Shown here: positions 5,934 to 28,344 of the stretch, in pieces
Layout: the number at the start of each line of letters is the position of its first letter
Numbering within the stretch: the stretch's first letter is position 1
Source of the DNA: Ruminiclostridium sp.
GTDB lineage: Bacteria > Bacillota > Clostridia > Oscillospirales > Ruminococcaceae
Reading direction: 5' to 3'
Length of the DNA stretch: 41,165 nucleotides
Assembly (NCBI GenBank): GCA_017465545.1
Contig: JAFTVY010000053.1
Span: 1-41,165, forward strand
The notes under the pieces: model-generated
The model's database searches: none
The model's input: the letters and a program-made list of their open reading frames with translations, nothing else
What the model was told of the DNA's origin: nothing
Translations under genes and position numbers: made by a program

Positions 5934-6046
5934 GCATATGGTTTCAGCGTTATTACAGGACTTCTTTTTTGCGGTTTGTGTGGGATTTTATTTTCTGATT
6001 CTTTTCTGAATTTTTGCTTTGAGTGCTTCTATTTTCTCTTTTCTTT
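5934..6046. repeat. Duplicated block, 3' end of zinc-ribbon gene A and downstream DNA
   Basis: This stretch is almost identical to 8367-8479 (offset 2433). It covers the last part of the gene plus more than 50 bp of non-coding DNA beyond the stop, so the duplication is of DNA and not of the gene alone. Confidence 0.9.
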
Positions 6047-6458
6047 CAATTTTATTTTTCGACTTCTCGATTTTCACAAGCTCATCGAGTTCAAATATTG
6101 TTTTGCAGTCGGGGCATTCATAATAATAGGTTATAAATTTGATATTTCCTACAAGGTATGAATCGAAAGAGAAAAAATCATAATTTTTCGCCTCTTCCGA
6201 AAAAGAATTAACAACTTTCTCTCTCTTTTTTTTGATAAGCAAACTGCAACAATTGGGGCAGTTATGATTTTTTAAAATAAAGAACGGTGAACTATTAATA
6301 TTGGTTTTGGTGCCGTGGATTATGATTTCCTCGCCATTACTACCATCTTTTCTCGGATCGTATTTATCGGCGATTTCACACAATTTATCTACACCGCTTT
6401 CGACTACACTATTTGCCTTTTTGTATAGTCCGACTAATTTTCTTGTCATTCCATCCAT
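5988..6458 (-). CDS. Zinc-ribbon protein A, paralogue of 8421-8879
   Basis: A 156-residue protein of unknown function. The start at 6458 (MDGMTRKLV) has AAGGAG 7 bases upstream; the earlier ATG at 6482 lies before this ribosome site. It has an N-terminal helix (residues 1-35), a conserved DPRKDGSNGEEIIIHG segment, two CxxC pairs (CPNC and CPDC, separated by about 50 residues) that can form a zinc ribbon, and a Lys/Glu-rich C-terminal helix ending KAKIQKRIRK. The first and last parts are nearly identical at DNA level to the paralogue at 8421, while the ribbon core differs. It is the last gene of the island in its direction of transcription. Confidence 0.75.
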   Translation of the reverse strand: MDGMTRKLVGLYKKANSVVESGVDKLCEIADKYDPRKDGSNGEEIIIHGTKTNINSSPFFILKNHNCPNCCSLLIKKKREKVVNSFSEEAKNYDFFSFDSYLVGNIKFITYYYECPDCKTIFELDELVKIEKSKNKIERKEKIEALKAKIQKRIRK

Positions 6459-6497
6459 GTCACCACTCCTTACTAAAAGCATAACTATACCCGTACA
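6313..6497. repeat. Duplicated block, 5' end of zinc-ribbon gene A and its ribosome site
   Basis: These 185 bp match 8734-8918 with about three mismatches. The block covers the first third of the gene, its ribosome binding site and about 40 bp upstream. Confidence 0.92.
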
Positions 6498-8366: not shown

Positions 8367-8479
8367 GCATATGGTTTCAGCGTTATTACAGGACTTCTTT
8401 TTTGCGGTTTGTGTGGGATTTTATTTTCTGATTCTCTTCTGAATTTTTGCTTTGAGTGTTTCTATTTTTTCTTTTCTTT
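8367..8479. repeat. Second copy of the 3' duplicated block
   Basis: Partner of 5934-6046. It contains the end of zinc-ribbon gene B and the same non-coding DNA downstream of its stop. Confidence 0.9.
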
Positions 8480-8879
8480 TTTCTCTTTCGAGAAGTATCA
8501 ATTCTACGTTTTCGTATACGGCTTTACAACCGGTACACTCAAAGTAGTACGTTACAAATTTTATATTACCTACAAGATATGTGTCAAGTGATGAGAAATC
8601 ATAATTTTTCGCTTCTTCTGAAAATGAGTTTACAATCTTTTCTTTTTTCTTGACGGCTAAAATGGCGTTACACTTTTCACAATAATGCTTTTTATGAAAG
8701 AAGTATGGAGTTCCATAACGCTGATATGACGTACCGTGGATTATGATTTCCTCGCCATTACTACCATCTTTTCTCGGATCGTATTTATCGGCGATTTCAC
8801 ACAATTTATCTACACCGCTTTCGACTACACTATTTGCCTTTTTGTATAGCCGGACTAATTTTCTTGTCATTTCATCCAT
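8421..8879 (-). CDS. Zinc-ribbon protein B, paralogue of 5988-6458
   Basis: A 152-residue paralogue of gene A. The start at 8879 (MDEMTRKLV) uses the same AAGGAG site. The N-terminal 50 residues and the C-terminal KAKIQKRIRK are the same as in A, and NSFSEEAKNYDF is shared in the middle. The two CxxC pairs are kept but with different surroundings (CEKC and CTGC against CPNC and CPDC), and the charged linker before the last helix is shorter. Conserved ends around a diverged core suggest gene conversion at the ends or selected change in the ribbon. The function is unknown. Confidence 0.75.
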   Translation of the reverse strand: MDEMTRKLVRLYKKANSVVESGVDKLCEIADKYDPRKDGSNGEEIIIHGTSYQRYGTPYFFHKKHYCEKCNAILAVKKKEKIVNSFSEEAKNYDFSSLDTYLVGNIKFVTYYFECTGCKAVYENVELILLEREKRKEKIETLKAKIQKRIRK

Positions 8880-8918
8880 GTCACCACTCCTTACTAAAAG
8901 CATAACTATACCCGTACA
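8734..8918. repeat. Second copy of the 5' duplicated block
   Basis: Partner of 6313-6497, with about three mismatches in 185 bp. It includes the ribosome site and first third of zinc-ribbon gene B. Confidence 0.92.
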
Positions 8919-10029: not shown

Positions 10030-10575
10030 ATGAGTCACAAGGACGATACAGCGAAATATTTTGACGAGGTGTACGAGCAGACCATAAAGGCGGTAACCCG
10101 CTTTATAGTCAGCAAATGCAGTAGCTTTGAGGACGCCGAGGATATGGTACAGAGCGTTTATACAAGGTTCTACCAGCGTATATCCCAGAAGGGCTACGAG
10201 GATATAGAAAGTCCTGAGGCTTTTCTTATAAATATAGCAAAATTCGAATGCAAGACTTATTTTTCCGTAAAGAAAAAGAATGAAAAAATATCCTCCTTTT
10301 CAGATTATTCCGAGGAGGAAATGGTAAATATAGAAGCACAGATGTCAAAGCCGCAGAAATCCCTTGTGGATATTATGTGCAATAAGCTTATGGCAAAGAA
10401 GATATTTGACGACATCGTGAAAACGGACGAAGTGACGGGACAGATATTCTACCTGCATTTTGCCTGCGATATGAAGCTTGAGGACGTGGCGACAGCACTT
10501 GACGTAAGTCTGTCAACGGTAAAGAATAAGCTCTACCGCACCATTGAGCGGCTGAGAAAGAAATACAGATTTTAA
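10030..10575 (+). CDS. ECF-type RNA polymerase sigma factor
   Basis: A 181-residue sigma-70 family protein of the short ECF type. Region 2 is at about residues 10-80 (FEDAEDMVQSVYTRFYQRI, then SPEAFLINIAKFECKTYF) and region 4 at about 120-178, with the helix-turn-helix LEDVATALDVSLSTVKNKLY. The linker (residues 85-118) is acidic. AAGGGCG precedes the ATG. The gene that follows by 22 bp encodes a single-span membrane protein, the usual arrangement for an ECF sigma factor and its membrane anti-sigma. The upstream promoter looks like a vegetative one; no autoregulatory ECF promoter was recognised. The regulon is unknown. Confidence 0.9.
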   Translation: MSHKDDTAKYFDEVYEQTIKAVTRFIVSKCSSFEDAEDMVQSVYTRFYQRISQKGYEDIESPEAFLINIAKFECKTYFSVKKKNEKISSFSDYSEEEMVNIEAQMSKPQKSLVDIMCNKLMAKKIFDDIVKTDEVTGQIFYLHFACDMKLEDVATALDVSLSTVKNKLYRTIERLRKKYRF

Positions 10576-10597
10576 TCTTACGAAGGGAGGCTTTATT

Positions 10598-11479
10598 TTG
10601 AACGAAAAAGATTTTTACAAACAGCTTATGAGTGAATATTCATTCGATCACGAAAAAATAAAAAAAGCCGCTATGGGTAAGATTACACAGTCAAGCTCAA
10701 AGAAAACCCCGATGAAGTGGATAGCTACCGGATGTGCGGCGGCTGTGGTTGCGGTTACTATCGGTACGGTAGGAATTATAGCGGCGACCTCAGGCGGAAA
10801 TCCCGTGACGGTTACTCCTACTACCTCCATTTCGATAGAGGAACGCTTCAAGCTTGCTTTAGAGGCTTATGAGAAATCAGACCAGAACACCGAGGACGTA
10901 TTCCTTTACGTAACCTTTATGCATACCGAGACTCCTTCGGCTATGCAGGATATTCTTGCCCGTGCGGACGGTACGGGAGAAATAAAGGTAATAGAGGTAT
11001 ATAATGCCGATAATACCTGCGTCAGCGGTAGCGCCAATATCAAGGAGCTTTTCGAGGCTGACGAGGAAACTATAGTAGCGGTAAAGATAAGATGCCCGGG
11101 AAACTTTATAAAAAGACTTTCCCGAGATAGGGAGGTGTATCTTGTAGAAACTGAAGAAGCCTTTGAAAACGGTAGCTTCAGCGCAATAGATACAACCGTA
11201 AGCAACCCCACACCGCCCGAAACAAGCACCGACAGTACGGAAACCTCCACCCCTGAAGAGGATACAAGCTCCTCAACAGAGCAGACCTCACCGCCTCCCG
11301 TGGTGGGCGATACGACTCCCGTAAAGGAAGAGGAAGATTCAGAGCATCCGGGACAGTCGGAGCCGGTCGTGACAACTCCCGTGACAGAGACGACAGAGCC
11401 ACCCGTGACGGAGGCAACGGATATTCCCGAAACGGAAGCTCCCGTAACTTCCGCTCAGACCGAGAGCGTAACAGAATAA
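10598..11479 (+). CDS. Single-span membrane protein, probable anti-sigma partner
   Basis: A 293-residue protein beginning at a TTG with GGAGG 7 bases upstream. It has a short cytoplasmic N-terminus (residues 1-40), one membrane segment (about 41-64, Ala/Val/Gly-rich), an extracytoplasmic domain to about residue 195, and a tail of about 95 residues that is almost only Thr, Pro, Glu and Ser (ETTEPPVTEATDIPETEAP). The cytoplasmic part is too short for a normal zinc anti-sigma domain and has no Cys/His pair, so the anti-sigma role rests on gene order. The Thr/Pro tail may be cell-wall-spanning or glycosylated. Confidence 0.7.
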   Translation: MNEKDFYKQLMSEYSFDHEKIKKAAMGKITQSSSKKTPMKWIATGCAAAVVAVTIGTVGIIAATSGGNPVTVTPTTSISIEERFKLALEAYEKSDQNTEDVFLYVTFMHTETPSAMQDILARADGTGEIKVIEVYNADNTCVSGSANIKELFEADEETIVAVKIRCPGNFIKRLSRDREVYLVETEEAFENGSFSAIDTTVSNPTPPETSTDSTETSTPEEDTSSSTEQTSPPPVVGDTTPVKEEEDSEHPGQSEPVVTTPVTETTEPPVTEATDIPETEAPVTSAQTESVTE

Positions 11480-11809: not shown

Positions 11810-11870
11810 CCGTTATCCGATAACGGGATTCCCTTCTTATGTTGAAATCCGACAGTTTTTGTGATATAAT
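11810..11870 (+). promoter_or_regulatory. Promoter and upstream palindrome of the seven-gene operon
   Basis: TTGAAA at 11842-11847, a 17-bp spacer, and TATAAT at 11865-11870. Upstream, the palindrome CCGTTAT-CCG-ATAACGG (11810-11826) ends 15 bp before the -35 box and may be an operator or activator site. Confidence 0.75.
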
Positions 11871-11909
11871 GTAAAATGGTTTATTATGTATTTACAGAAA
11901 GGGTATTTT

Positions 11910-12503
11910 ATGGAACAGCTTGCGGAAATGTACGTCACCTTGCTACCCGTCATACTTGCAGGGGTTTTCAATATGGTATGGTGCAAAATAAGAGTCTGCG
12001 ATTTTCTTAAAAAGCCCGTTGACTTCGGTAGGAATTTTCCCGACGGAAGAAGAATCTTCGGAGATAACAAGACCTTTAAGGGCTTTATCGGAATGATAAT
12101 TTCAGGAGCAATCTTTTCTGTAGCGTGGGGACTTATTTCTTACGGTAACGAGACTCTTACAGCCTGCAATTATTTTTACAGAAATTATGATAATTCCTTT
12201 TTATATAATCTGCTTACGGGAGCGCTTTCAGGCTTTGCCTATGCTCTTTTTGAGCTACCCAACAGCTTTCTTAAAAGAAGACTTGGTATCACTCCGGGAA
12301 AGAACGATATAAGAGGAATAAAAAGAGTACTTTTCGTATTCCTCGATCAGGCGGATTCGGTTTTCGGATGTGTGCTTGTGGTATGCATCTTCTTCCCCTT
12401 ACCCGTGTGGTATTACTTTGTATACGTGCTGGTAGGTGCAGTAACGCATATTATTTTCAATATGCTTTTGTACTTCTGCCACCTGAGAAAAAATATGTTC
12501 TGA
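11910..12503 (+). CDS. CarS-like CDP-archaeol synthase family protein (CTP-transferase)
   Basis: A 197-residue multi-pass membrane protein. The start at 11910 (MEQLAEMYV) follows AAAGGG at a normal distance; the in-frame ATG at 11886 lies before that site. The motifs are those of the DUF46/CarS family, relatives of CdsA: FGDNKTFKG at about residues 50-58, NSFLKRRLGITPGK in the second half, and the following FLDQADSVFG. In archaea CarS moves CMP from CTP to a phosphorylated ether lipid to give a CDP-lipid. In this operon it precedes PssA, which uses a CDP-lipid. The lipid acceptor here is unknown; it need not be an archaeal one, since CarS-like proteins also occur in bacteria. Confidence 0.8.
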   Translation: MEQLAEMYVTLLPVILAGVFNMVWCKIRVCDFLKKPVDFGRNFPDGRRIFGDNKTFKGFIGMIISGAIFSVAWGLISYGNETLTACNYFYRNYDNSFLYNLLTGALSGFAYALFELPNSFLKRRLGITPGKNDIRGIKRVLFVFLDQADSVFGCVLVVCIFFPLPVWYYFVYVLVGAVTHIIFNMLLYFCHLRKNMF

Positions 12504-12519
12504 AGGAAAGGATATATAA

Positions 12520-15027
12520 ATGAGTATTTACAGTCTTGAAGAAAAGCTGAGCGTGACTGACGTCGGCAATAAGGCGGCTTTTCTTTCCTTGATGAAAGGC
12601 GAAGGCTTCAGAGTTCCTGCAGGTATCGTTTTATCAGACGAAATTTTTAAAAAGACTATCTGCGGGAGCGATAACAAGCAAAAGGCAGACGAGCTTCTTA
12701 AAGAGCTTAATGGGGACAATGCAAGGGAGATTTCCGAAAAGCTTGCCATGCTTTATTCCTCCCTTGCCCTATCCGACGAAGTAAAAACAGAAATCGCCGA
12801 AAAAACGGATAGCAGAAAGAGGTATGCGGTACGAAGCAGCGGCATAAAGGAAGATCTTCAGGGCTTTTCCTTTGCGGGACAGTACGATACCTTTATAAAC
12901 GTAAGCGGAGCTGAAGAAATTTCAGCGGCGGTTATAAAATGCTATCTTTCGGCATATTCGGAAACTGTGCTTTCTTACCTTGCGACAAACGGAATATCCA
13001 CCGATGAAATCGGTATGGCGGTCATTGTTCAGGAAATGGTAGACTCTGATATAAGCGGAGTAGCATTCACGGTAAATCCCACTAGCGGCTGTGATAAGGA
13101 GATATTCATCGAAGCCGCAGGCGGTCAGGGTGAAAATCTTGTAAGCGGAAAGGTTGCCGCCGAGAGATATTCCTATAACTGGTGGAATAAGGAGCTTACG
13201 GCATCCTCAGGCAGTCTGCTGACAGCGGACAAGGTAAAGGAGATAGCGGAAACCGCACTTTCTATCCAGCAGTATTTCGGCTATCCTTGTGATATTGAAT
13301 TTGCCTATAAAAAGGACGCTCTCTATATCCTTCAGGCAAGGGCGGTAACAAAGATTCTCTATAACGATATAAAGGATCAATGGTCAACTGCGGACTTTAA
13401 GGACGGCGGTGTTTCCGCTACGGTATGTACGCCCTATATGTGGAGCCTTTACGAATACATATGGGAAAGCGAGCTCAGAAAATTCCTTATAGAATCTAAG
13501 ATTCTGACGCCTGCCGAAGTCAGCAGAAAGCTGGGCGATATGTTCTACGGTCGCCCCTACTGGAATATGACTATTGTAAAATCTGCTATGGCTAAGGTCC
13601 CTGGGTATAAGGAGAGGGACTTTGACAGCGAATTCGGTGTAAAGATAACCTACAGCGGCAACGGAAATACAACCTCAATAAATCCGAAAAGTATATTCGG
13701 AATAATAAGAATTGCTCTTGCACAGAAAAAAATAGTCGGAGAAAGAAGAGAGAATGCCGAGGCTCTGAAGTCACAGCTTCTTGATACCTATTCTGCTTAT
13801 TTTGCCGATAAGGATAAGACTTTTTCCGCTGATGAAATAAAGTCGAAATGGCGACAGCTTATATTTACCGATTATCTGAAAAGCGAAAGCACCTATTTCA
13901 GACAGATTTTTATCAATACCATCCATCAGTCCTTATATAAGGATAAGATCTTAAAGCATACCACAAAGGGCGGATATTTCACCCTTATAGGTGGTCTTGA
14001 TAATATATCCCATCTGCTCCCCTTCTACAGCATATGGGAGATAAGCAGAAGGATAAGAAAGGACGAAAAGGCGCTTTCCTTCTGGAATGATACTCCCGCT
14101 GATGTGATAGCGGCAAAAATCAGCGAAGCACCCTTCGGTGATATGATTTTAAAATATATCGGGGATTACGGCTACCACTCAAAAAAGGAGCTTGACGTAA
14201 CCTACCCCTCTTTTTACGAGGATATAAACGCTATAATAAACGACGTTAAAAGTACCTGTGCTTTAGGTGACGAATGCTCTCCAGAAAAGGATTCACTGCG
14301 CCTGCGAGAGGATTTCAGTAAGGAAATGGAGCAGGTAAAGGGAAAAATCTCTTCATCAGCGTACAAGAAATTTGAAAAGAACGTAACTGAAATGAGAAGT
14401 ATGCTCTGGTGGAGAGAAGAATTCAGGGACGTTTCCACAAGATTCTACTGCATAATAAGAGCCTATACCTTAAGGCTTGCGCAGACTCTTTATGACGAAG
14501 GGGTGATCCGGGATAAAGAGGATATATGGTTTACCAAAATTGAGGACGTACGAAGCTTTCTTGACGGCAAAATTTCAAAGGAAGAGCTTGCTGAAATAAT
14601 AAAGAGGAATAAAATCTATTACTCTTCCTTTAGAAATTTCCAGAACGAAAATGAAATCGGTTCTGCCTTTCAGGGTGCCGTTTCAGGTCAGTCCGACAAG
14701 GCGCTCAGCGGTATAGGTTGTTCTTGCTACAAGGCGACGGGAGTTGCAAGGGTAATAAGCTCCCTTGACGAGACGGACAGACTGTGCGAGGGTGATATAC
14801 TTATAACAAAATTCACCGATACCGGCTGGACAAGTCTTTTTGCAAAGCTTGGCGGAATCGTTACCGAATACGGCGGAATGCTCTGCCATGCCGCAATAGT
14901 TTCAAGAGAATACGGCATCCCCTGTGTAGTATGTGCGGAAAATGCAACGAAGCTTATAAAGGATGGCGAAACTATTACGATAAACGGAGAGACCGGCGAA
15001 ATTATACTTGGTGGTGAAAAGAATTGA
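12520..15027 (+). CDS. RPH-like phosphotransferase 1 (PEP-synthase-type N- and His domains)
   Basis: An 835-residue cytoplasmic enzyme. The N-terminal ATP-grasp domain of PEP synthase/PPDK type is clear (AVRSSGIKEDLQGFSFAGQ, then VIVQEMVDSDISGVAFTVNP). A middle domain of about 400 residues has no match that I can name. The C-terminal swivelling domain carries the phospho-acceptor His790 in GGMLCHAAIVSREYGIPC. There is no C-terminal PEP/pyruvate TIM barrel. Order and length match rifampicin phosphotransferase, which uses ATP to phosphorylate an alcohol, giving AMP and phosphate, better than PEP synthase. The substrate is unknown. In this operon it could phosphorylate a lipid alcohol. It starts 16 bp after the CarS-like gene and overlaps pssA. 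Confidence 0.8.
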   Translation: MSIYSLEEKLSVTDVGNKAAFLSLMKGEGFRVPAGIVLSDEIFKKTICGSDNKQKADELLKELNGDNAREISEKLAMLYSSLALSDEVKTEIAEKTDSRKRYAVRSSGIKEDLQGFSFAGQYDTFINVSGAEEISAAVIKCYLSAYSETVLSYLATNGISTDEIGMAVIVQEMVDSDISGVAFTVNPTSGCDKEIFIEAAGGQGENLVSGKVAAERYSYNWWNKELTASSGSLLTADKVKEIAETALSIQQYFGYPCDIEFAYKKDALYILQARAVTKILYNDIKDQWSTADFKDGGVSATVCTPYMWSLYEYIWESELRKFLIESKILTPAEVSRKLGDMFYGRPYWNMTIVKSAMAKVPGYKERDFDSEFGVKITYSGNGNTTSINPKSIFGIIRIALAQKKIVGERRENAEALKSQLLDTYSAYFADKDKTFSADEIKSKWRQLIFTDYLKSESTYFRQIFINTIHQSLYKDKILKHTTKGGYFTLIGGLDNISHLLPFYSIWEISRRIRKDEKALSFWNDTPADVIAAKISEAPFGDMILKYIGDYGYHSKKELDVTYPSFYEDINAIINDVKSTCALGDECSPEKDSLRLREDFSKEMEQVKGKISSSAYKKFEKNVTEMRSMLWWREEFRDVSTRFYCIIRAYTLRLAQTLYDEGVIRDKEDIWFTKIEDVRSFLDGKISKEELAEIIKRNKIYYSSFRNFQNENEIGSAFQGAVSGQSDKALSGIGCSCYKATGVARVISSLDETDRLCEGDILITKFTDTGWTSLFAKLGGIVTEYGGMLCHAAIVSREYGIPCVVCAENATKLIKDGETITINGETGEIILGGEKN

Positions 15028-15632
15028 AAATGATACTGGGCTATTATAATAAATCGGTAATACTTACCTATATAGGAGCGGCATCGGCGGTACTGGGAAT
15101 GGTACTTTCCTTTTCGGGAGCAATGAAGCTTGCCGTACTGTGCCTTATCGTATGCGGAGTAGCAGACCTTTTCGACGGAATGATAGCAAGACGTTGCAAG
15201 AGGACTGAAGCGGAAAAGGAGTTCGGGATACAGATAGATTCTCTTACCGATATGGTGAGCTTTGCGGTATTTCCCGTTGTGCTTTCTGTCGCTATGGGCA
15301 ATACGGCGTGGTATCATATTCTGATATATATAATTTACCTGCTTGCGGCTATAACGAGACTGGGCTATTTCAACGTATCCACTTCTACCGAAGCGGTAAC
15401 TGAATTTTACACGGGACTACCCGTTACCTTTGCCTCGCTGATAGCTGTATCGGCTTATATAATAGGCAGTATTTTCAGTATCACACAGATAATTCTGCCT
15501 GTCTGCCTTTTTGTTACCGCTCTTCTTTTTGTTCTTAAAATAAAGATTGCAAAGCCAAGGGGTATTGCCTACCTGCTTTTAGGACTTCTTGCTATCGGTC
15601 TTGCGGTAGCTACTGTTTTTATCGGTGGTTGA
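15024..15632 (+). CDS. pssA: CDP-alcohol phosphatidyltransferase, phosphatidylserine synthase type
   Basis: A 202-residue membrane protein with about six hydrophobic segments. The CDP-alcohol phosphatidyltransferase signature is complete at about residues 50-77: DGMIARR, then eight or more residues to G, then D-x3-D (FGIQIDSLTD). The later RLGYFNV and TGLPVT match the PssA branch, which joins L-serine to a CDP-lipid and releases CMP. The start is TTG at 15024, overlapping the previous stop; an ATG at 15030 is the alternative. The next gene is a PS decarboxylase, which supports serine as the substrate. The lipid half may be ordinary diacylglycerol or the product of the CarS-like enzyme. Confidence 0.88.
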   Translation: MKMILGYYNKSVILTYIGAASAVLGMVLSFSGAMKLAVLCLIVCGVADLFDGMIARRCKRTEAEKEFGIQIDSLTDMVSFAVFPVVLSVAMGNTAWYHILIYIIYLLAAITRLGYFNVSTSTEAVTEFYTGLPVTFASLIAVSAYIIGSIFSITQIILPVCLFVTALLFVLKIKIAKPRGIAYLLLGLLAIGLAVATVFIGG

Positions 15633-15633
15633 T

Positions 15634-16512
15634 ATGGCACAGATTTACGACAGAAAAAACGGCGCTTACTATGAAGATAAACAATACGGCGGTAAGGCAC
15701 TTAAATTCCTTTACGGAAATCCCTTCGGCAGAATAATTCTGCGGCTGTTTATAGTGGGTAAGGGCTATTCAGAATTTAATGCAAAAAGGAATTCTACAAG
15801 AAAATCAGCAGAAAAGATAGCTCCCTTTGTAAAGGAATACGGCATTGTCATGAGCGATTTTGAGGATAGAGAGTATATATCCTTTGCAGATTTTTTTACA
15901 AGAAGGTTACGTGAAGGGAAAAGAAGCTTTTCGCAGGATAAGATGGATTTTATATCCGTTGCTGACAGCAAGCTTCTTTGCTACAGAATTACAGAGGATG
16001 GCAAGATACCTATAAAAAACAGCATCTATACCGCAAAGGAAATCATAGGCGAAGAGTTTACGGAGGACTTTTACGGCGGGTACTGCCTTGTTTTCAGACT
16101 CACCGTTGACGATTATCACAGATATTGCTTTTTCGATAACGGAAAACTTATCAGCGAGAGATATATAAAGGGAAAGCTCCATACGGTAAGCCCGATTTCA
16201 TCAAAAAGGTACAAGGTCTTTTCTGAAAACTGCCGAAACGTATCCTATATAGAGACGGAAAATTTCGGTGCTTGTTATCAGGCGGAAATCGGTGCTTTGC
16301 TTGTAGGTAAAATAATGAATCACCATATAGTGCATTTTTCAAAGGGCGAAGAAAAGGGCTATTTTGAAATGGGCGGTTCTACCTGCGTTGTTATGGTAAA
16401 GAAGGACGCTATAACGATAGATAGCGATATACTTGATAATTCCGACAAGGGGATTGAAACTAAGGTTCTTATCGGAGAAAGGATAGGCAAGAAAAATGTT
16501 AAAGCGACTTAA
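15634..16512 (+). CDS. psd: Phosphatidylserine decarboxylase proenzyme
   Basis: A 292-residue pyruvoyl-type decarboxylase that turns a phosphatidylserine-type lipid into the ethanolamine form. Family motifs in order are FADFFTRRL, DDYHRY, GKLHTVSPIS, and GALLVGKI. Then comes MGGSTCVVM, with the self-cleavage site between Gly248 and Ser249 that yields the pyruvoyl group on the small C-terminal subunit. The length fits the Firmicutes-type enzyme. The ATG at 15634 is taken as the start; a GTG at 15625 is possible and overlaps pssA. The 3' end overlaps the UbiA-like gene by 17 bp. In archaea a homologous enzyme acts on archaetidylserine. Confidence 0.9.
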   Translation: MAQIYDRKNGAYYEDKQYGGKALKFLYGNPFGRIILRLFIVGKGYSEFNAKRNSTRKSAEKIAPFVKEYGIVMSDFEDREYISFADFFTRRLREGKRSFSQDKMDFISVADSKLLCYRITEDGKIPIKNSIYTAKEIIGEEFTEDFYGGYCLVFRLTVDDYHRYCFFDNGKLISERYIKGKLHTVSPISSKRYKVFSENCRNVSYIETENFGACYQAEIGALLVGKIMNHHIVHFSKGEEKGYFEMGGSTCVVMVKKDAITIDSDILDNSDKGIETKVLIGERIGKKNVKAT

Positions 16513-17395
16513 TATTTATTTTAAGGAGATGTACCCGTTTATTCCGAGGCTACTTCTTGGGTTTATAGTATTCGGAGAAATCTATTTTATCCTGCTTCTT
16601 AATTACGGCATTACGGAATTTTCTCTTGGTATACAGGAGATAGTAGGCGGAATAACCATCTTCGGCTTTCTGATGTTTTTACGTATAGCCGACGATTTCA
16701 AGGATTATGAATCTGACAAAAGGCTTTTCCCTGACAGAGCGTTTCCCAGCGGGAAGGTACATAAAAAGGATTTGAATATTGTTGTTGCCGTGGATCTTGC
16801 GGTTATGACAATACTTAACGTTATTTTTATGAATAATATATTCTTCTATCTTTTCCTTATGGCTTACGGTGTGCTGATGTCCTTATGGTTTTTCCAGAAG
16901 CACAAAATCAGCAAGAGCCTCCCTCTTGCACTGGTGACGCATAACCCCGTACAGATGGTGCTGAATCTTTATATCATTTCCTTCTGCTGTATCAAGTATA
17001 ACCTTCAGCCCTTTACGCTGACCTCCTTTTTAGTTCTTATGACGCTTTATTTTCCTGCGCTTATATGGGAGATTGCAAGAAAGATACGTGCGCCTGAAGA
17101 CGAAACGGAATATACCACCTATTCAAAGCTTTTCGGTCATAAGAAGTCAACGCTGTTTATCCTTATACTGACGCTCGTTGATATAGTTACGAATCTTTTC
17201 CTTGTTATAAACCTCAATATAATCGGATTTGTCATCCTTATTATAAACGTTGCCGTAATGACTGCAGAGTTTATCATATTTATAAAGGATCCTAAAAAAT
17301 TTAAGCTTGTAACAAGAGTTGAAATATACACCTACATAACCGAAGCGACAATGCTTCTGATAATTCCCGCCTATATGATATTTGGAAAGATATGA
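16496..17395 (+). CDS. UbiA-family membrane prenyltransferase
   Basis: A 299-residue protein with about eight or nine membrane segments. The first Asp-rich motif of the UbiA family is clear (RIADDFKDYESDKRLFPDRA, Asp residues at about 66-74, with FPSG after it). The second motif position at about 191-202 reads WEIARKIRAPEDETEY, where the common DxxxD form is partly replaced by Glu. UbiA enzymes move a prenyl chain from prenyl diphosphate to an aromatic ring or, in archaea, to geranylgeranylglyceryl phosphate. The acceptor is not known here. The gene overlaps psd and the next gene, so it is translationally coupled with head-group enzymes, which suggests a lipid acceptor over a quinone. Confidence 0.82.
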   Translation: MLKRLNIYFKEMYPFIPRLLLGFIVFGEIYFILLLNYGITEFSLGIQEIVGGITIFGFLMFLRIADDFKDYESDKRLFPDRAFPSGKVHKKDLNIVVAVDLAVMTILNVIFMNNIFFYLFLMAYGVLMSLWFFQKHKISKSLPLALVTHNPVQMVLNLYIISFCCIKYNLQPFTLTSFLVLMTLYFPALIWEIARKIRAPEDETEYTTYSKLFGHKKSTLFILILTLVDIVTNLFLVINLNIIGFVILIINVAVMTAEFIIFIKDPKKFKLVTRVEIYTYITEATMLLIIPAYMIFGKI

Positions 17396-19779
17396 GTATA
17401 TTTATAACACAAGAAAATTTCAAAGAGCATAAAATCGGCAAAAAGGCACAGCGACTTTTTGAGCTTAAGGAAAACGGCTTTAACGTGCCTAAGCTTTTTT
17501 GCGTAAACGAAATACCGGATGAAGAACAGCTCCTTTCATTTTTAAAAGAAGGAAGGGAGTTTTCGGTGCGCTCGTCAGCCTTATGCGAGGACTCGGCAGA
17601 CCATTCCTTTGCGGGACAGTTCGACAGCTTTCTTTTTGTAAAAAAGGAGGAGGTGTCTGACAGAATAAAGGACTGCTTTTTGTCAGCCGAAAAGGAAAAC
17701 GTCCTTTCCTATTGCAAGGAAAACGGAATATCACCTGACGCTATAAAAATGACGGTAATAGTTCAGGAGATGATAGACGCTGATTATTCCGGCGTTATAT
17801 TCTCGGCAAATCCGCAGGGAATATTAAACGAAACCGTCATTGTAACGGGAACAGGAACGGGTGACAACGTGGTGGAGGAAAAGTCCGACGTCACCACCTG
17901 CTACTATAACAGAACAGACAGAAAATATTATGCAGAAAAAAACAGCGACAACGCTCCCGATATAAAGGACGGGCTTATAGAAGAGCTGGTTGCTTTATGC
18001 GAAAAGGCTATGCCGATTTTCGGAAGGCTTATAGACATTGAGTTTGCCATAAAGGATGATGAAATATTTATCCTGCAGGTAAGACCGATAACTACTATTA
18101 ATGATAAAGCTCCCCTTATCCTTGATAACAGCAATATTGTCGAAAGCTACCCCGGAATATCCCTGCCGCTCACCGTTTCCTTTGTAAAGGAGGCGTACGG
18201 CGGAGTTTTCAAGGGACTTGCAAAAAGGATCCTGCATAGCGAAAAGCTGGTAAACAGCTATAACGATACCTATTACAATATGACCGGCTCGGCAAACGGC
18301 AGAGTGTATTATAAGATAAGCAACTGGTACACCCTTCTGTCATTTCTGCCTATGTCGAAAAAGATAATCCCCATATGGCAGGATATGATGGGTGTTGCGG
18401 AAAAATCCGTAGACAGTAAAGAGGTAAGGCTTTCACCCTTCAGGAGAATCGCCACCTATTTCAATATTATTTCTGAAGCCTTTGGGGTAAGAAAAAATAT
18501 GGAAAGGCTTAACGCCTGCTTTCCTGCAACGGAAAAATATTTCAGGGATAATTTCACGGCGGATATTACTCTTGACGATATAAAGAAATTATATAATGAA
18601 GTTTCTGACAAGCTTTTATCTGTATGGGATATAACGCTTTTAAACGACCTTTACGCCTTTGTTTTCACGGGACTTTTAAAGTCGGAGATAAAGAAAACCG
18701 GTGCGGAAAATTACGAAAAGAAGGTAAACGGATATATAAGCGGCATATCCAATATAGAGAGTATGAAGCCTATAAGGGCGATGATAAGGCTTGCCGATTA
18801 TGACAGAGCGGTACTTGATAAGCTTAGTAGTATAAAGGATGAAAAACAGCTTATAGAAAAATTATCCGATTATCCTGAATTTGAAAAGGGCTTTTACGAA
18901 TATATCTCCCTTTACGGCGACCGCTCACCTGAAGAACTGAAAATGGAGACTATCACCTTCAGAGAAAGTCCTTTACTGCTTATGAAGAAGATCAGCGGGC
19001 TTTCCTCCGATAAGGAGATATTTGAGAGGACGAAAAGCTCTCTGCTCTCAGAAAAGGAAAAGTCATCCGAGGATATAGCCACCGACATAAAAAAGCACAG
19101 AAAAAGAATCGGATTTTTTGCGAAAAAGGCTTCTGTCGGAATAATGAACAGAGAAATTTCCCGTCTTAACAGAACGAGAGTTTACGGAATGGTGCGCTCT
19201 ATGTTTTTAAGAGCAGGCGAGATTTTCTTTGAGGAAGGTAAGATTTTTGATAAAAGGGATATTTTCTATCTTACAAAGGAAGAGATCTTTTATGGTGAGC
19301 CTGACAGCTTTGCAAAGCTTATTGATAAAAGAAAGGCTGATTATAAGAGCTTTTACGAGCTACCTGCCTTTTCAAGGATAATTTTTTCCGAAAAGGAATT
19401 CGATAAGAAATTAGTCAGCACCGCCAAGGTAAGCGAAAATCTGTCGGAGGAAAAAACGCTTTTCGGTACTCCCTCCTCAGCAGGGATAGTAACGGGAGAA
19501 GCGGTCGTTGTAAAGGACGCCTGCAATCCGCCTGATACCAAGGGTAAGATAATCGTTGCAAAAATGACGGATCCGGGCTGGGTATTCCTGCTGTCGGATT
19601 CTAAGGGGATAATCAGCGAAAAGGGTTCGCTCCTGTCTCATACCGCCATTATTTCAAGAGAGCTTAAAATCCCTGCCGTTGTGGGGGTAAAGAACGCCTC
19701 TCTGCTTATAAAGGACGGCGATATAATAGAGCTTGACGGTAACAGCGGAGCAATAAGAATATGCGGAAGGAAGTGGTAG
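17392..19779 (+). CDS. RPH-like phosphotransferase 2
   Basis: A 795-residue paralogue in architecture of the 12520 gene. The ATP-grasp motifs are present (SVRSSALCEDSADHSFAGQ; VIVQEMIDADYSGVIFSANP), then a long middle domain that differs from that of the first enzyme, then the His domain with His750 in GSLLSHTAIISRELKIPAVV. As in the first enzyme, no PEP-binding barrel is present. Having two such enzymes with different middle domains in one operon suggests two separate phosphorylation steps or two substrates. Start and preceding stop overlap as ATGA. The reaction (ATP to AMP plus phosphate with an alcohol phosphorylated) is inferred from the rifampicin phosphotransferase family. Confidence 0.78.
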   Translation: MSIFITQENFKEHKIGKKAQRLFELKENGFNVPKLFCVNEIPDEEQLLSFLKEGREFSVRSSALCEDSADHSFAGQFDSFLFVKKEEVSDRIKDCFLSAEKENVLSYCKENGISPDAIKMTVIVQEMIDADYSGVIFSANPQGILNETVIVTGTGTGDNVVEEKSDVTTCYYNRTDRKYYAEKNSDNAPDIKDGLIEELVALCEKAMPIFGRLIDIEFAIKDDEIFILQVRPITTINDKAPLILDNSNIVESYPGISLPLTVSFVKEAYGGVFKGLAKRILHSEKLVNSYNDTYYNMTGSANGRVYYKISNWYTLLSFLPMSKKIIPIWQDMMGVAEKSVDSKEVRLSPFRRIATYFNIISEAFGVRKNMERLNACFPATEKYFRDNFTADITLDDIKKLYNEVSDKLLSVWDITLLNDLYAFVFTGLLKSEIKKTGAENYEKKVNGYISGISNIESMKPIRAMIRLADYDRAVLDKLSSIKDEKQLIEKLSDYPEFEKGFYEYISLYGDRSPEELKMETITFRESPLLLMKKISGLSSDKEIFERTKSSLLSEKEKSSEDIATDIKKHRKRIGFFAKKASVGIMNREISRLNRTRVYGMVRSMFLRAGEIFFEEGKIFDKRDIFYLTKEEIFYGEPDSFAKLIDKRKADYKSFYELPAFSRIIFSEKEFDKKLVSTAKVSENLSEEKTLFGTPSSAGIVTGEAVVVKDACNPPDTKGKIIVAKMTDPGWVFLLSDSKGIISEKGSLLSHTAIISRELKIPAVVGVKNASLLIKDGDIIELDGNSGAIRICGRKW

Positions 19780-19780
19780 A

Positions 19781-20845
19781 ATGTATTTTGTAAAAAGGGT
19801 AACGGAAAGTGAATATGAGGATTTTTTGTCCTTGCCGTCACGTATCCATAAAAAAAATACGCTTATGCAAAAGCGCTTTGATGAAATTGCACTTCTCAAA
19901 AATAATCACGTGCTGAGCAGGTATTTCAGCTTTACAGCCTTTCTGTGCTATCTTGACAATAAAGTGGTGGCAAGATGTGCGGTCACGATATATCCTTACA
20001 AGGAAGAGGCTTATCTCGGCTTTTTCGATAGTGAGAACGATACAGAAGCCGTAAGGACGCTGTTTCAGACGGCAGAAAATTATGCGAAGAAAAACGGAGT
20101 ATCAAGGCTCACAGGCCCCGTTGATGCAAGCTTCTGGATAGGCTACAGAATGAAATCGGATAAGTTCGATGAGCAGTGCTTCTTTTCAGAGCCCTACGGC
20201 AAGGAATATTATCCTGCGCTGTGGAAGGAATGCGGATATGAAATTTCGCAGGTGTACGTATCCAATATATATAAAAAGCTTTCAAAGACGGAAAACGATG
20301 ATAAGGATTATAAGCGTAGATACGATTATTTAGTGAAAAAAGGCTACAGCATAGTTTCTCCTAAAAGAAGCGACTGGGAGGGGACTGTAGGCGAGGTCTA
20401 TAAATTACTGATCAAGCTGTACAGCGATTTTCCCGTGTTTTCCCATATCACCGAGGCAGAATTCAAAGAGCTGTATAAAAGCCTTAAAACAGTCCTTGAT
20501 TTTTCTATGGTAAAGCTGGGATATAAAAACGGAAGGCTTGTAGGCTTCTTTATCGCCGTACCCGATTACAGAAACAGATTATGCGGAAATATCGGACTTG
20601 CTGAAATTCTGTACTTACTGAAAAATCGTATAAGAAGCGAAAACTATATACTTCTCTATATCGGTGTTGACGAAAATCACCTGGGGCTGGGTTCGGGTTT
20701 ATCTCAGGCGATGTTTGAGGAGCTACGGAAAAAAAGTGCCTCGTCAATAGGCGCACTTATAAAAAAGGGCAAGGTCTCGGAAAAATATATCGACAAGAAA
20801 ATTCTCGGTCAGAGAGAATATATTCTGCTTGAAAAGCGGATATAG
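19781..20845 (+). CDS. GNAT-fold acyltransferase-like protein (YghO-like)
   Basis: A 354-residue soluble protein. The first half contains YLGFFDSENDTEAVRTLF, SRLTGPVDASFWIGYRM and PYGKEYYPALWKECGYE. This order (GFFDS..., GPxD..., YYxxLxxxxGY) is the one I know from YghO-like GNAT proteins, a group that includes the bacterial ceramide synthase of Caulobacter. The second half has a GNAT-type core, VKLGYKNGRLVGFFIAVP, and a GLGSGL turn for CoA or pantetheine. It would move an acyl group to an amine or similar acceptor. It is the last gene of the operon, one base after the previous stop and just before a terminator. The family match is by eye. Confidence 0.65.
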   Translation: MYFVKRVTESEYEDFLSLPSRIHKKNTLMQKRFDEIALLKNNHVLSRYFSFTAFLCYLDNKVVARCAVTIYPYKEEAYLGFFDSENDTEAVRTLFQTAENYAKKNGVSRLTGPVDASFWIGYRMKSDKFDEQCFFSEPYGKEYYPALWKECGYEISQVYVSNIYKKLSKTENDDKDYKRRYDYLVKKGYSIVSPKRSDWEGTVGEVYKLLIKLYSDFPVFSHITEAEFKELYKSLKTVLDFSMVKLGYKNGRLVGFFIAVPDYRNRLCGNIGLAEILYLLKNRIRSENYILLYIGVDENHLGLGSGLSQAMFEELRKKSASSIGALIKKGKVSEKYIDKKILGQREYILLEKRI

Positions 20846-20850
20846 AAAAT

Positions 20851-20886
20851 GGGATGTAAAAACGACGTTTTTACATCCCTCTTTTA
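20851..20886 (+). terminator. Terminator of the seven-gene operon
   Basis: A perfect 13-bp stem (20851-20863 / 20867-20879) with a GAC loop, followed by TCTTTTATT. It also lies just after the stop of the convergent glucanase gene and may serve both directions. Confidence 0.9.
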
Positions 20887-20890
20887 TTAC

Positions 20891-22285
20891 TTATTGTGCC
20901 AGCTTTGTGGATAGATCCTTTATGAGCGCCGCATCGTCAGGATTTACTATCTTGTATTCCGTTCTTGAATAGAAATGGCTGTTTGTATCCCATATAACGG
21001 GTACGAAGCCTTCGTCAAGAAGTCTTTCGAGTACCACCTTAAGACAATCTGTGGAGGTCTTTTTGTTCTTTACGGAAGAATCCATATTGTTTTTAGGATA
21101 GTTTGAGGTCGTTTCTCCCATGAATACGGGAATACCCTTATCTGTAAAGGCTTTTTTCAGCTTGCCGCACTGATCGTCTATGTAGTTAAGCCAGTCCTGA
21201 CCGCCTATCTTGTTCCACCAGTACATATTGTTATCCACGTAATGCACCGATACCATCAGTCTGTCAGCTACACTATCGGTGGGCATCTTGAATTTGCTAT
21301 CTGTTGTAAGGTCGATATTTGTCCAGTAGCCTGATACTATAAGTACACGCTCGGCATTGTTGCCACCTGTTTTTCTTACGGCATCCACAAAGCACTGATT
21401 CATTGTGTTTGTCATCTTGTAGCCATCGCTCTTTGATACCTCTACAAGCTCGCCCTTATCGTTGAACTGATTACCGCCTAAATATTCGTTATAGCCTTCA
21501 AATACAAGAGTAGGGCCGTAGTCCTTGAAATATTCCGCAATCTGTGTCCACAGATGGGTGAATATTCTTTCGCATTCGTCAATATCGTTTCTGCGGATGA
21601 TGAATTCGTCAAAGTGGTGGATGTTGATAACTGTGTATAAGCCTTCGTTCTGGCAATAGTCAACGATTTCCTTTACTCTTGCAATATAGTCTGCATTGAT
21701 AGTCCATGTACCGTCGTTTGCCATCATATTGCCCCAGAAAACGGGGATTCTTACCGTGTTGAAGCCAGCCGCCTTCATACCGCTTATTACTTCCTGAGTG
21801 GTTTCTACACATTCCCAGCATACCTCGTAATCCTTGGGAGTGTTGTTGCCCACAACGGGAATCCACTCGAAAGTGATTTTCTCACAATCGGTAGCTTCAT
21901 AAGCTTCCATTGTATTACCAAGGCTTATACCCAGTCCCATATCCTTTGCCACCTCGTTTGCGGTGGGGAATATGATGGGTTCAGAATTTGGAGCTTCTGT
22001 TTCGGGAGCAGACTCCGTGGTAGTTTCGGGAGGTGTTGTAGCAGACTCCGTAGTAGTTTCGGGCGCTTTTGTAGTAGATTCCGTGGTAGTTTCGGGTGCA
22101 GAGGTTTCAGTCATAGAGCTTTCCTCCTTAGAGCTGTCCTCAGAGCTTTCGTCGTTCTTATCCTCAGTCATTGAGGAAGTAACAGAGCTTACGTCGGATT
22201 TGTTTTCAGAGCTTGTATCACCTGAAGAGCAAGCGGTGAAAAGCAATGCCGTACATAAAAGAAGAGAAATAAGTTTCTTTTTCAT
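20891..22285 (-). CDS. GH5 family glycoside hydrolase, lipoprotein
   Basis: A 464-residue lipoprotein (lipobox FTAC, Cys19). After a Ser/Asp/Glu-rich stretch comes a Thr/Glu/Pro linker (residues about 60-97, repeats of APETTTES type) and then a GH5 catalytic domain from about residue 110. The likely acid/base is Glu267 in FEGYNEYLG and the nucleophile Glu391 in VFMGETTS; FNTVRIPVFWG and VINIHHFDE are further GH5 marks. The family cuts beta-1,4-glucans or mannans. No dockerin or CBM is present, so it is a cell-surface enzyme and not a cellulosome part. It lies 91 bp after the other GH5 gene, and the two share an identical leader and signal sequence. Confidence 0.88.
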   Translation of the reverse strand: MKKKLISLLLCTALLFTACSSGDTSSENKSDVSSVTSSMTEDKNDESSEDSSKEESSMTETSAPETTTESTTKAPETTTESATTPPETTTESAPETEAPNSEPIIFPTANEVAKDMGLGISLGNTMEAYEATDCEKITFEWIPVVGNNTPKDYEVCWECVETTQEVISGMKAAGFNTVRIPVFWGNMMANDGTWTINADYIARVKEIVDYCQNEGLYTVINIHHFDEFIIRRNDIDECERIFTHLWTQIAEYFKDYGPTLVFEGYNEYLGGNQFNDKGELVEVSKSDGYKMTNTMNQCFVDAVRKTGGNNAERVLIVSGYWTNIDLTTDSKFKMPTDSVADRLMVSVHYVDNNMYWWNKIGGQDWLNYIDDQCGKLKKAFTDKGIPVFMGETTSNYPKNNMDSSVKNKKTSTDCLKVVLERLLDEGFVPVIWDTNSHFYSRTEYKIVNPDDAALIKDLSTKLAQ

Positions 22286-22376: not shown

Positions 22377-23774
22377 TTAACCACAGGCGTTCATAATAAT
22401 ATCGATTATCTCGGGGTATTTTTCGCTGTATGTATTTCTGTCAAACAGAGCCATTGCACCGGTGTCCCACCAGAAACATTTTATTTCATATTCGGAAGCA
22501 CAGCTGAAAAAATGCTCCACATACGCTTTTCTTGTGGCTTCGTTATCTTTAAAATCAGCACCGCATTCTCCGACAATAACAGGCACGTTGTGTGATTGTG
22601 AAAAAGCTGATAATTTGCTGAACAGCTTTTTTATATCTTCTTTTTCTCTTTTGCTACCCCATTGATCCGTCGGTTCAGTATAATCAACAGAAGTCCAAGT
22701 GAACGGCTGTGGGTCATAATTGTGCACCTGGATAATAAGATGACCTTCTGTACTGTCTGTCGGAAGTACGAAGTTCTCAAAGGCTCCGTCACCGCATGCT
22801 CCGGAATATATCTGCACCATAAGATTTCTCTGTGCATTATTACCGCCTGTTGCCCGGACTACATCAACAAAAAGCTGGTTAAAGTCATTGTGTGCTTTAT
22901 ATTCCTCAGGACTGCCGGCACCACCCCAATGGCCATCGGCGTCCAGCATTTCATTGAACCCCTCAAACATCAGTTTGTCGCCATAATCCTTAAAATGAAC
23001 AGCAATATCACGCCACAACGCTGAAATCTTATCGTGGTACTTTTCATAGCATTCAGGTGTTGCACGTATCCAGCCGCCGCCGGCATCATGATGAACGTTT
23101 ATTACGCAATACATATCCTGATGAATAACGTAATCAACCACCTGCTGCACTCTTGCAAGCCATTCAGAGTCGATATTTCCGCTTTCATCAATATGCTCGT
23201 GCCACGTAACAGGAATACGCACCGCATTAAAGCCAGCCTCTTTTACAGCGGCTATAAGCTCAGGCTTTGTTACAGGGTTGCCCCATGCTGTTTCATAATT
23301 TTCAGGCTTGCCCTCTGAATAAAGACCTATCCACTCACCGTTACTTTCAAGCGTGTTACCTAAATTCCAGCCGACTTTGATATTATTAATCGTCTGTAAA
23401 GCGGTCGGGAATATAACAGGCTCAGGCTCGGGAGCTTCTGTCACAGGTACTGTTGTAGCAATCTCTGTTGTAGTTTCGGGTTCCTTTGCAGTCGTTGTAG
23501 TTTCGGGTTCTTTTGTAGTCGTTGTAGTTTCGGGTTCCTTTGTAGTCGTTGTAGTTACAGGTTCTTTCGTAGTGGTTGTAGTTTCAGGTACAGAGGTCTC
23601 CACCATAGACGTTTCCTCCTGCGAACTTTCTGCAGAACTCGCATTATTTTCTCCAGTTACAGATGAAGCTGAAGAGCTTACATCTGATGTGCTGTCAGAG
23701 CTTGTATCACCTGAAGAGCAAGCGGTGAAAAGCAATGCCGTACATAAAAGAAGAGAAATAAGTTTCTTTTTCAT
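22377..23774 (-). CDS. GH5 family endoglucanase-type hydrolase, lipoprotein
   Basis: A 465-residue lipoprotein (lipobox FTAC, Cys19). The start at 23774 is fixed by the ribosome site and by identity with the leader of the neighbouring GH5 gene. A Thr-rich linker with four KEPETTTTT-type repeats leads to a GH5 domain from about residue 122 (WNLGNTLE, FNAVRIPVTW, VINVHHD). The acid/base is Glu275 in FEGFNEML and the nucleophile Glu403 in VIVGECGAD. The sequence style is that of subfamily 4, which includes endoglucanases, xyloglucanases and lichenases; the subfamily is inference. It probably heads a two-gene transcript with the 20891 gene. Confidence 0.9.
   Translation of the reverse strand: MKKKLISLLLCTALLFTACSSGDTSSDSTSDVSSSASSVTGENNASSAESSQEETSMVETSVPETTTTTKEPVTTTTTKEPETTTTTKEPETTTTAKEPETTTEIATTVPVTEAPEPEPVIFPTALQTINNIKVGWNLGNTLESNGEWIGLYSEGKPENYETAWGNPVTKPELIAAVKEAGFNAVRIPVTWHEHIDESGNIDSEWLARVQQVVDYVIHQDMYCVINVHHDAGGGWIRATPECYEKYHDKISALWRDIAVHFKDYGDKLMFEGFNEMLDADGHWGGAGSPEEYKAHNDFNQLFVDVVRATGGNNAQRNLMVQIYSGACGDGAFENFVLPTDSTEGHLIIQVHNYDPQPFTWTSVDYTEPTDQWGSKREKEDIKKLFSKLSAFSQSHNVPVIVGECGADFKDNEATRKAYVEHFFSCASEYEIKCFWWDTGAMALFDRNTYSEKYPEIIDIIMNACG
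23461..23600 (-). repeat. 27-bp coding minisatellite in a GH5 linker
   Basis: About four tandem units encode KEP(E/V)TTTT(T/A). Variation in the last base of codons is low, which suggests recent expansion. Confidence 0.8.
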
Positions 23775-23788
23775 TGCAGTTTCCTTTC
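23695..23788. repeat. 94-bp leader repeat, copy 2 (in the 22377-23774 gene)
   Basis: Identical to 22206-22299 over ribosome site, start codon and signal peptide; the sequences differ immediately outside. Confidence 0.93.
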
Positions 23789-23817
23789 CGTTATATCTTA
23801 CTATATTCACTTTTTTA

Positions 23818-23852: not shown

Positions 23853-28302
<4,450 letters not shown>

Positions 28303-28344
28303 ACTCATACCTCCCTGTGATTTATATTCTTATTTTATCCCCAC

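Follow-up and report, generated by a model that had tools for sequence, protein, structure and literature searches.

A recurrent seven-gene operon of Clostridia and its probable product, an unusual membrane lipid with an ethanolamine head

Seven genes in a 41,165-nucleotide stretch of DNA from Ruminiclostridium sp. (the window; source genome 2.6 Mb, 97.7% completeness) most likely form a conserved assembly line that builds an unusual membrane lipid with an ethanolamine head. The explanation that we favor, with slightly more confidence than doubt, is a two-module pathway, in which one set of enzymes would build a lipid backbone and a second set would add its head. That the operon product is something other than ordinary diacyl phosphatidylethanolamine (PE) is a firmer expectation, which we regard as probable. 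Related assembly lines are found in many anaerobes. The pathway recurs in gut and rumen Clostridia, and its carriers include the named strains Pseudobacteroides cellulosolvens ATCC 35603, Butyrivibrio sp. INlla14 and Ruminococcus flavefaciens YRD2003, so that its product can be sought directly. Should an ether or ceramide-like lipid be made, this would be relevant to host signaling and to the way in which the lipid divide is inferred from bacterial UbiA and CarS genes. Among the titles and abstract openings listed in literature searches, none describes such an operon.

The operon consists of seven intact, head-to-tail open reading frames (11886-20845, forward strand), spaced by +16, -4, -8, -17, -4 and +1 nt. 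In order, these encode a CarS-like CTP-dependent cytidylyltransferase (11886-12503; PF01864, 1.7e-18); RPH1, an RPH/PEP-synthase-like phosphotransferase and putative lipid-alcohol kinase with PPDK_N and PEP-utilizers domains (12520-15027); a PssA-like CDP-alcohol serine transferase (15024-15632; PF01066, CDP-OH_P_transf, 1.1e-12); a Psd-like pyruvoyl serine decarboxylase (15625-16512; PF02666, PS_Dcarbxylase, 2.5e-46); a UbiA-like membrane transferase of a distinct subfamily (16496-17395); RPH2, a second RPH-like phosphotransferase with the same two domains (17392-19779; NF004882, 846.6 bits, cut-off 850); and a GNAT-fold acyltransferase, which profile alignments place among relatives of CerS/YghO (19781-20845; Pfam GNAT, 20.5 bits, cut-off 20.7). 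The UbiA-like protein has no Pfam match and scores 425.9 bits against the NCBIfam model NF010118 'prenyltransferase', below the cut-off of 443; the present reading calls into question both this label and the label 'phosphoenolpyruvate synthase' of the nearest models. A sigma-70-type promoter, recognized by consensus match only (TTGAAA-17-TATAAT, 11842-11870, forward strand; 11 of 12 matches, with TG before the second hexamer), precedes the first gene; the region has 32 such promoter-like sites, against 19.4 expected, and this one ranks first. An intrinsic terminator of 13 pairs (20851-20879, forward strand) follows the last gene, its 53-nt fragment having a folding energy of -18.7 kcal/mol (z -7.1). 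The initial annotation had described a seven-gene operon with one promoter and one strong terminator, and both signals and all seven frames are indeed present and intact where it placed them; its tight packing also holds, except that one overlap measures 17 nt where at most 16 bp had been given. Since gene content and order recur in other Clostridia family codes, the operon is more than a chance arrangement. None of the seven proteins has a PADLOC match that would suggest a defense system.

How these genes recur was read from a genome-collection scan that returned 576 stretches with the pattern, 501 of them with UbiA relatives; synteny was taken from the best 80 of the 501, and the loci analyzed comprise these 80 and further stretches from other genomes. 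By record title, 76 of the best 80 come from Clostridia (the other four are named only as "bacterium" or Bacillota), and many carriers are from ruminant or other animal guts. Within the best 80, RPH2 starts at most 300 nt 3' of the UbiA gene in 74 of 76 loci with enough sequence; the two exceptions are L063, whose overlapping genes the rule missed, and L061, with other DNA in between. The GNAT gene comes next in 62 of 65 testable loci, and an acyl-AMP ligase is present in 33 of these 65. The GNAT rule failed in L061, which has the gene further on, and in L062 and L073, where the UbiA-RPH2 pair has no GNAT nearby. Upstream, the 53 loci with 6 kb of sequence contain CarS (41), Psd (32), PssA (27), DgkA (22) and RPH1 (19), and in L045 PssA is fused to Psd. 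Among these best 80 of 501 loci, the co-occurrence of the seven families that the initial annotation had suggested looking for is seen as modules. The best-supported reading is that the loci resolve into modules, with UbiA-RPH2-GNAT, often accompanied by an acyl-AMP ligase, as the backbone module; no such ligase was found within the source window. In broader samples, the UbiA protein matched two of 147 genomes drawn from the window's order (the source genome and one weak match), and NF010118 matched 11 of 391 drawn from the class, nearly at full length in seven, source genome included.

The position of RPH1 offers a molecular clue to its function. Among the window, L016-L021 and L026-L105, 61 loci bear CarS, and 55 of these are testable, with 400 nt or more of sequence 5' of that gene (L018 and L027 are one contig, and neither is within the 55). 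Every one of the 55 has exactly one of RPH1 (26 loci) or a DgkA-type kinase (29 loci) beside CarS, and none has both. RPH1 lies directly 3' of CarS, and DgkA lies before CarS or overlaps its start; 24 of the DgkA genes were identified by ORF call and five short ones by HMM only, and the kinase matched PF01219 (DAGK_prokar) in both examples tested. On a UbiA tree of 68 rows, the exchange occurred at least twice. Specifically, L097, with DgkA, falls inside a starred clade of 16 in which all other rows have RPH1, and a single genus code includes both forms (RPH1 in G551 and G367; DgkA in G557, G552, G554 and G558). The 55 loci are thus not independent, because the swap needs only about two events. 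From its operon position, RPH1 is most likely a DgkA-equivalent kinase that phosphorylates a lipid alcohol, a step that we consider well supported by this placement; for RPH1, the mutual exclusivity supports the earlier suggestion that the added phosphotransferases act on a lipid alcohol. Like RPH and PEP-synthase-like enzymes, RPH1 and RPH2 both contain ATP-binding and phosphohistidine Pfam domains with a conserved His: His790 of RPH1 is invariant in 13 aligned sequences, and the phosphohistidine motif pattern occurs in 29/31 RPH1 and 82/83 RPH2 full-length sequences, the RSS motif being less general (68 of the 83 RPH2 sequences). Unlike RPH, they score far below the cut-off of 999 for the rifamycin-inactivating phosphotransferase equivalog NF041857 (292 bits for RPH1, 195.6 for RPH2), and RPH1 occupies the place of a lipid kinase. 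As such, lipid-alcohol kinase would be a new and testable role for an enzyme family known from drug inactivation and PEP synthesis.

The available data is compatible with the following model. In the backbone module, RPH2 would phosphorylate a hydrophobic alcohol with ATP, the nature of this substrate being a guess. The UbiA-like enzyme would then move the alcohol chain onto a small polar acceptor, of the glycerol or amino-alcohol type, and the GNAT enzyme would attach an acyl chain, supplied by the neighboring acyl-AMP ligase where there is one, to yield a two-chain alcohol akin to diacylglycerol or ceramide. In the head module, RPH1 (or DgkA elsewhere) would phosphorylate the free hydroxyl of this alcohol, CarS would form the CDP-lipid, PssA would attach serine, and Psd would decarboxylate the serine lipid to a phosphoethanolamine lipid. 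The CarS, PssA and Psd steps are inferred from family knowledge. Among full-length sequences, 42 of 43 PssA proteins keep the CDP-alcohol motif and 52 of 54 Psd proteins keep G[GS]S[TS]. The protein families support the original proposal of a dedicated lipid pathway that runs from activation through serine transfer to decarboxylation. More tentatively, the product might represent a new class of two-chain lipids, in which RPH2 would (pyro)phosphorylate a non-isoprenoid or scavenged alcohol, the UbiA-fold enzyme would couple it to a polar acceptor without drawing on endogenous prenyl diphosphates, a CerS-like acylation would follow, and the heads (phosphoethanolamine or BtaA-type) would be swappable.

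A rather unlikely version of the backbone module, and one compatible with the two-module pathway as a special case of it, is an archaeal-like prenyl ether route, in which the UbiA-like enzyme would move the cell's own polyprenyl diphosphate to glycerol phosphate and give an archaetidylethanolamine-like lipid or a prenyl/acyl hybrid. The archaeal pathway to archaetidylethanolamine (DGGGP synthase, CarS, Ass, Asd) likewise combines a UbiA-type enzyme with CarS-type CDP activation, CDP-alcohol serine transfer and decarboxylation, and among solved structures in the PDB the UbiA profile comes closest to DGGGP synthase (6m31, E 5.4e-6), followed by chlorophyll a synthase (E 0.002). PMC9385802 gives the DGGGP synthase motifs as D-x3-D (motif 1), Y-x5-K (motif 2) and three Asp (motif 3). 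Motif 1 is kept as D66-x3-D70, both residues being among 88 invariant columns in 42 aligned UbiA sequences and the pattern being present in 82 of 87. Motifs 2 and 3, judged by conserved alignment columns, are not: Y124 and K137 are invariant at another spacing, and the three Asp are replaced by E192, R195, K196 and E203, all invariant, with D202 nearly so. The head enzymes also score below archaeal cut-offs, namely CarS against the CDP-archaeol synthase equivalog NF003114 (79.5 bits, cut-off 148), PssA against the archaetidylserine synthase model NF038087 (81, cut-off 240) and TIGR04217 (64.6, cut-off 200), and Psd against the archaetidylserine decarboxylase model TIGR00163 (80.1, cut-off 111.75) and PRK00723 (246.2, cut-off 371). 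Also unlike the archaeal pathway, the source operon has RPH enzymes and a CerS-like GNAT, with DgkA exchange in relatives. The archaeal analogy of the initial annotation therefore survives in the order of steps by family and in UbiA motif 1, and is weakened by these scores and by motifs 2 and 3. Bacterial prenyl-glycerol ethers have a precedent in the heptaprenylglyceryl phosphate pathway of Bacillus PcrB/AraM. On this route the operon product would likewise be a bacterial prenyl-glycerol ether, although neither PcrB nor AraM is among the operon's family matches (for the PcrB/AraM pathway, see PMC9179154). Further in its favor, an ORF that BLAST-clusters with HMG-CoA reductase adjoins the U-RPH pair in L015, and L025 contains RPH, a divergent UbiA (weak match: probability 74%, E 2.8e-5), CarS, PssA and an HMG-CoA reductase-kinase fusion. 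The fusion itself (L025:6131-8902, reverse strand) is a protein of 923 residues that combines HMG-CoA reductase with an ecdysteroid-kinase/APH-like domain; the RPH, CarS and PssA genes are its neighbors.

The supply of isoprenoids provides a separate line of evidence on this route. The source genome has one PF00348 enzyme, one UppS and one IspH, and five of the six operon carriers in family code f63 (G551, G552, G554, G557 and G558) have all three isoprenoid families tested. The sixth, G367 (98% complete), carries the operon CarS-RPH1-UbiA-RPH2-GNAT-ligase-PssA-Psd, and a search of its genome gave no match to PF00348, PF01255 or PF02401/IspH. Across f63, PF00348 is absent in 9 of 22 genomes tested and PF01255 in 7 of 22, and all nine genomes without PF00348 are also without IspH (the IspH search covered 14 of the 22). 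An assembly gap in G367 is unlikely, because eight relatives also have neither PF00348 nor PF02401, and isoprenoid synthesis seems to have been lost in G367 and these relatives. The eight operon genes of G367, compared with L054, show dN/dS values of 0.11-0.22, and the operon is under purifying selection. The UbiA-like enzyme can thus persist where one would not expect endogenous polyprenyl diphosphate, unless alcohols are scavenged, which makes prenylation from the cell's own isoprenoids doubtful. Elsewhere, the operon carrier G412 (79% complete) has PF00348 and PF02401 matches and none to PF01255, and carriers show no clear difference in extra E-prenyl synthases among 19 genomes, with one PF00348 copy in 16, two in G506 and G339, and none in G367. 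The search for prenyl diphosphate genes that had been proposed as a check is thus positive for the source genome and for five of the six f63 carriers and negative for the sixth, G367; together with the altered motifs 2 and 3, the G367 result weakens the earlier suggestion of a prenylated product. That the transferred chain is an isoprenoid is possible, with the balance leaning against it.

Salvage would reconcile a prenyl chain with G367. In this variant, which again falls within the backbone module as one form of it, RPH2 would phosphorylate an environmental prenol (phytol, farnesol or polyprenol) for the UbiA-like enzyme, which would account for the fixed UbiA-RPH2 pair and for its retention in G367, and the probable role of RPH1 would already be one case of an RPH-type enzyme acting as a lipid kinase. 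Phytol would be plentiful in herbivore guts, and animal guts are the origin of many carriers by record title; against the variant, which we consider unlikely, E. yurii and P. cellulosolvens are carriers that we take to be non-gut isolates.

We hold it to be just as unlikely that the operon makes ordinary PE from recycled diacylglycerol and that UbiA, RPH2 and GNAT are unrelated to this task. RPH1 or DgkA together with CarS, PssA and Psd would be enough to convert diacylglycerol to PE, the PssA and Psd families and motifs are those of the bacterial PssA-Psd pathway (PssA scores 71.2 bits against bacterial pssA TIGR00473, cut-off 107), and the operon Psd is the only Psd match found in the source genome. 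However, the operon differs from that pathway in having its own lipid kinase, a second cytidylyltransferase and a linked backbone module. Specifically, the source genome has its own CdsA, which is separate from CarS and adjoins UppS, so that the operon CarS is a second CDP enzyme and would be redundant for ordinary PE; furthermore, UbiA, RPH2 and GNAT are linked, and two carriers, G412 and G414, have another Psd elsewhere in the genome. A caveat of the initial annotation, that flanking genes might be missing in relatives with the same pair, is borne out in part, in that G031 and G095 of the same family have a Psd-family match and no UbiA match; three genus-mates without UbiA have no Psd match, and Psd is present in two of five other family members.

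Within the two-module pathway, head and backbone modules can part. Psd and CarS were searched for in the source genome and 29 carriers without PssA or Psd in the locus, genomes of the carriers being of unstated completeness; of these 30, 22 have a Psd and 17 match PF01864. In each of the 14 sampled carriers whose CarS lies within or close to a locus that has no PssA or Psd, another contig encodes a Psd. Among the other 15, CarS is clear in one (G524) and weak in one (G533, perhaps CdsA), and Psd is present in seven; seven of the eight without a Psd match still have GNAT beside UbiA-RPH2, and in six of these seven the search gave no CarS match either. That the GNAT role does not need Psd is the best-supported reading of this pattern. 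Related loci (L015, L022-L024, L168 and L169) combine a U-RPH pair with a GNAT of this kind (by profile check on L022 only), an acyl-AMP-ligase-like protein and a DUF3419 (BtaA-type) protein, BtaA being a betaine lipid synthase; the window's operon has no such gene. These loci also encode a 440-residue membrane protein that resembles CTP-dependent lipid kinases by eye and has no family match in two examples, and no Psd was found in the three genomes of L022-L024.

The initial annotation had suggested that the GNAT enzyme could acylate an amine. N-acylation of the ethanolamine head was dropped, given that GNAT persists beside UbiA-RPH2 in seven of eight sampled genomes without a Psd match. A 47-sequence GNAT profile aligns with the Roseomonas protein in the CerS position (hhalign E 4e-14, 312 columns) and with a Rubrobacter protein (E 2.3e-23, 307 columns); the profile has no meaningful match among solved structures, and the motif GPVDxSFW occurs in 56 of 74 GNAT sequences. 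The Roseomonas cluster includes an aminotransferase, a DAG-kinase-family protein, a CDP-alcohol transferase, LptF/G, nucleotidyltransferases, an acyl-AMP ligase and an SDR, and the Rubrobacter relative adjoins an aminotransferase-family enzyme; read from their annotations, these neighbors would be sphingolipid genes. The Caulobacter sphingolipid genes form a cluster of such kind, with CC_1154 as CerS (PMC11324152). By these alignments, the GNAT is kin to the bacterial ceramide synthase CerS/YghO, with an acyl-AMP ligase often nearby as a further likeness, and this kinship makes the backbone a likelier site of acylation than ethanolamine. It would also lead one to expect an amine acceptor, which counts against the two-module pathway. 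A ceramide-like product, for which GNAT would N-acylate a long-chain base from another source before the head module converts it to ceramide phosphoethanolamine, draws on the same kinship and on the ligase in 33 of 65 loci, yet is very unlikely, given that no serine palmitoyltransferase or other long-chain-base synthase lies within the operon or was noticed in the 45 largest neighbor families (judged by cluster labels and one example's first residues each), and that UbiA and RPH2 would be left unexplained.

Plasmids gave little sign of spreading the gene, with one match to the window's UbiA in 72,556 plasmid records; a class-B UbiA has 17 plasmid matches, 16 of them from Streptomyces clavuligerus. 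On two Streptomyces plasmids, RPH-like, AfsA-related and isoprenylcysteine-methyltransferase-like genes occur together (L153:9409-16087 and L154:4669-9423), in L153 followed by a partial UbiA-like match; the neighbors of the Streptomyces RPH (AfsA) and of the Rubrobacter tropicus or Haladaptatus RPH show no clear link. In the window, the DNA just 5' of the operon (10030-11479, forward strand) encodes a sigma-70-family factor and then a protein whose tail is rich in Thr, Pro and Glu and which, judged by eye, has a single membrane segment. Further upstream, 5988-6482 and 8421-8903 (reverse strand) are a related pair of ORFs of ~160 residues (119/160 aligned residues identical). Beyond the terminator, two tandem related proteins (20891-22285 and 22377-23810, reverse strand; 189/434 aligned residues identical) share a lipoprotein-like N-terminus and a Thr/Glu-rich linker, and are followed by genes for a beta-galactosidase (GH2), an alpha-L-fucosidase and an AraC-type regulator (23853-28308, reverse strand, and 28456-29265, forward strand).
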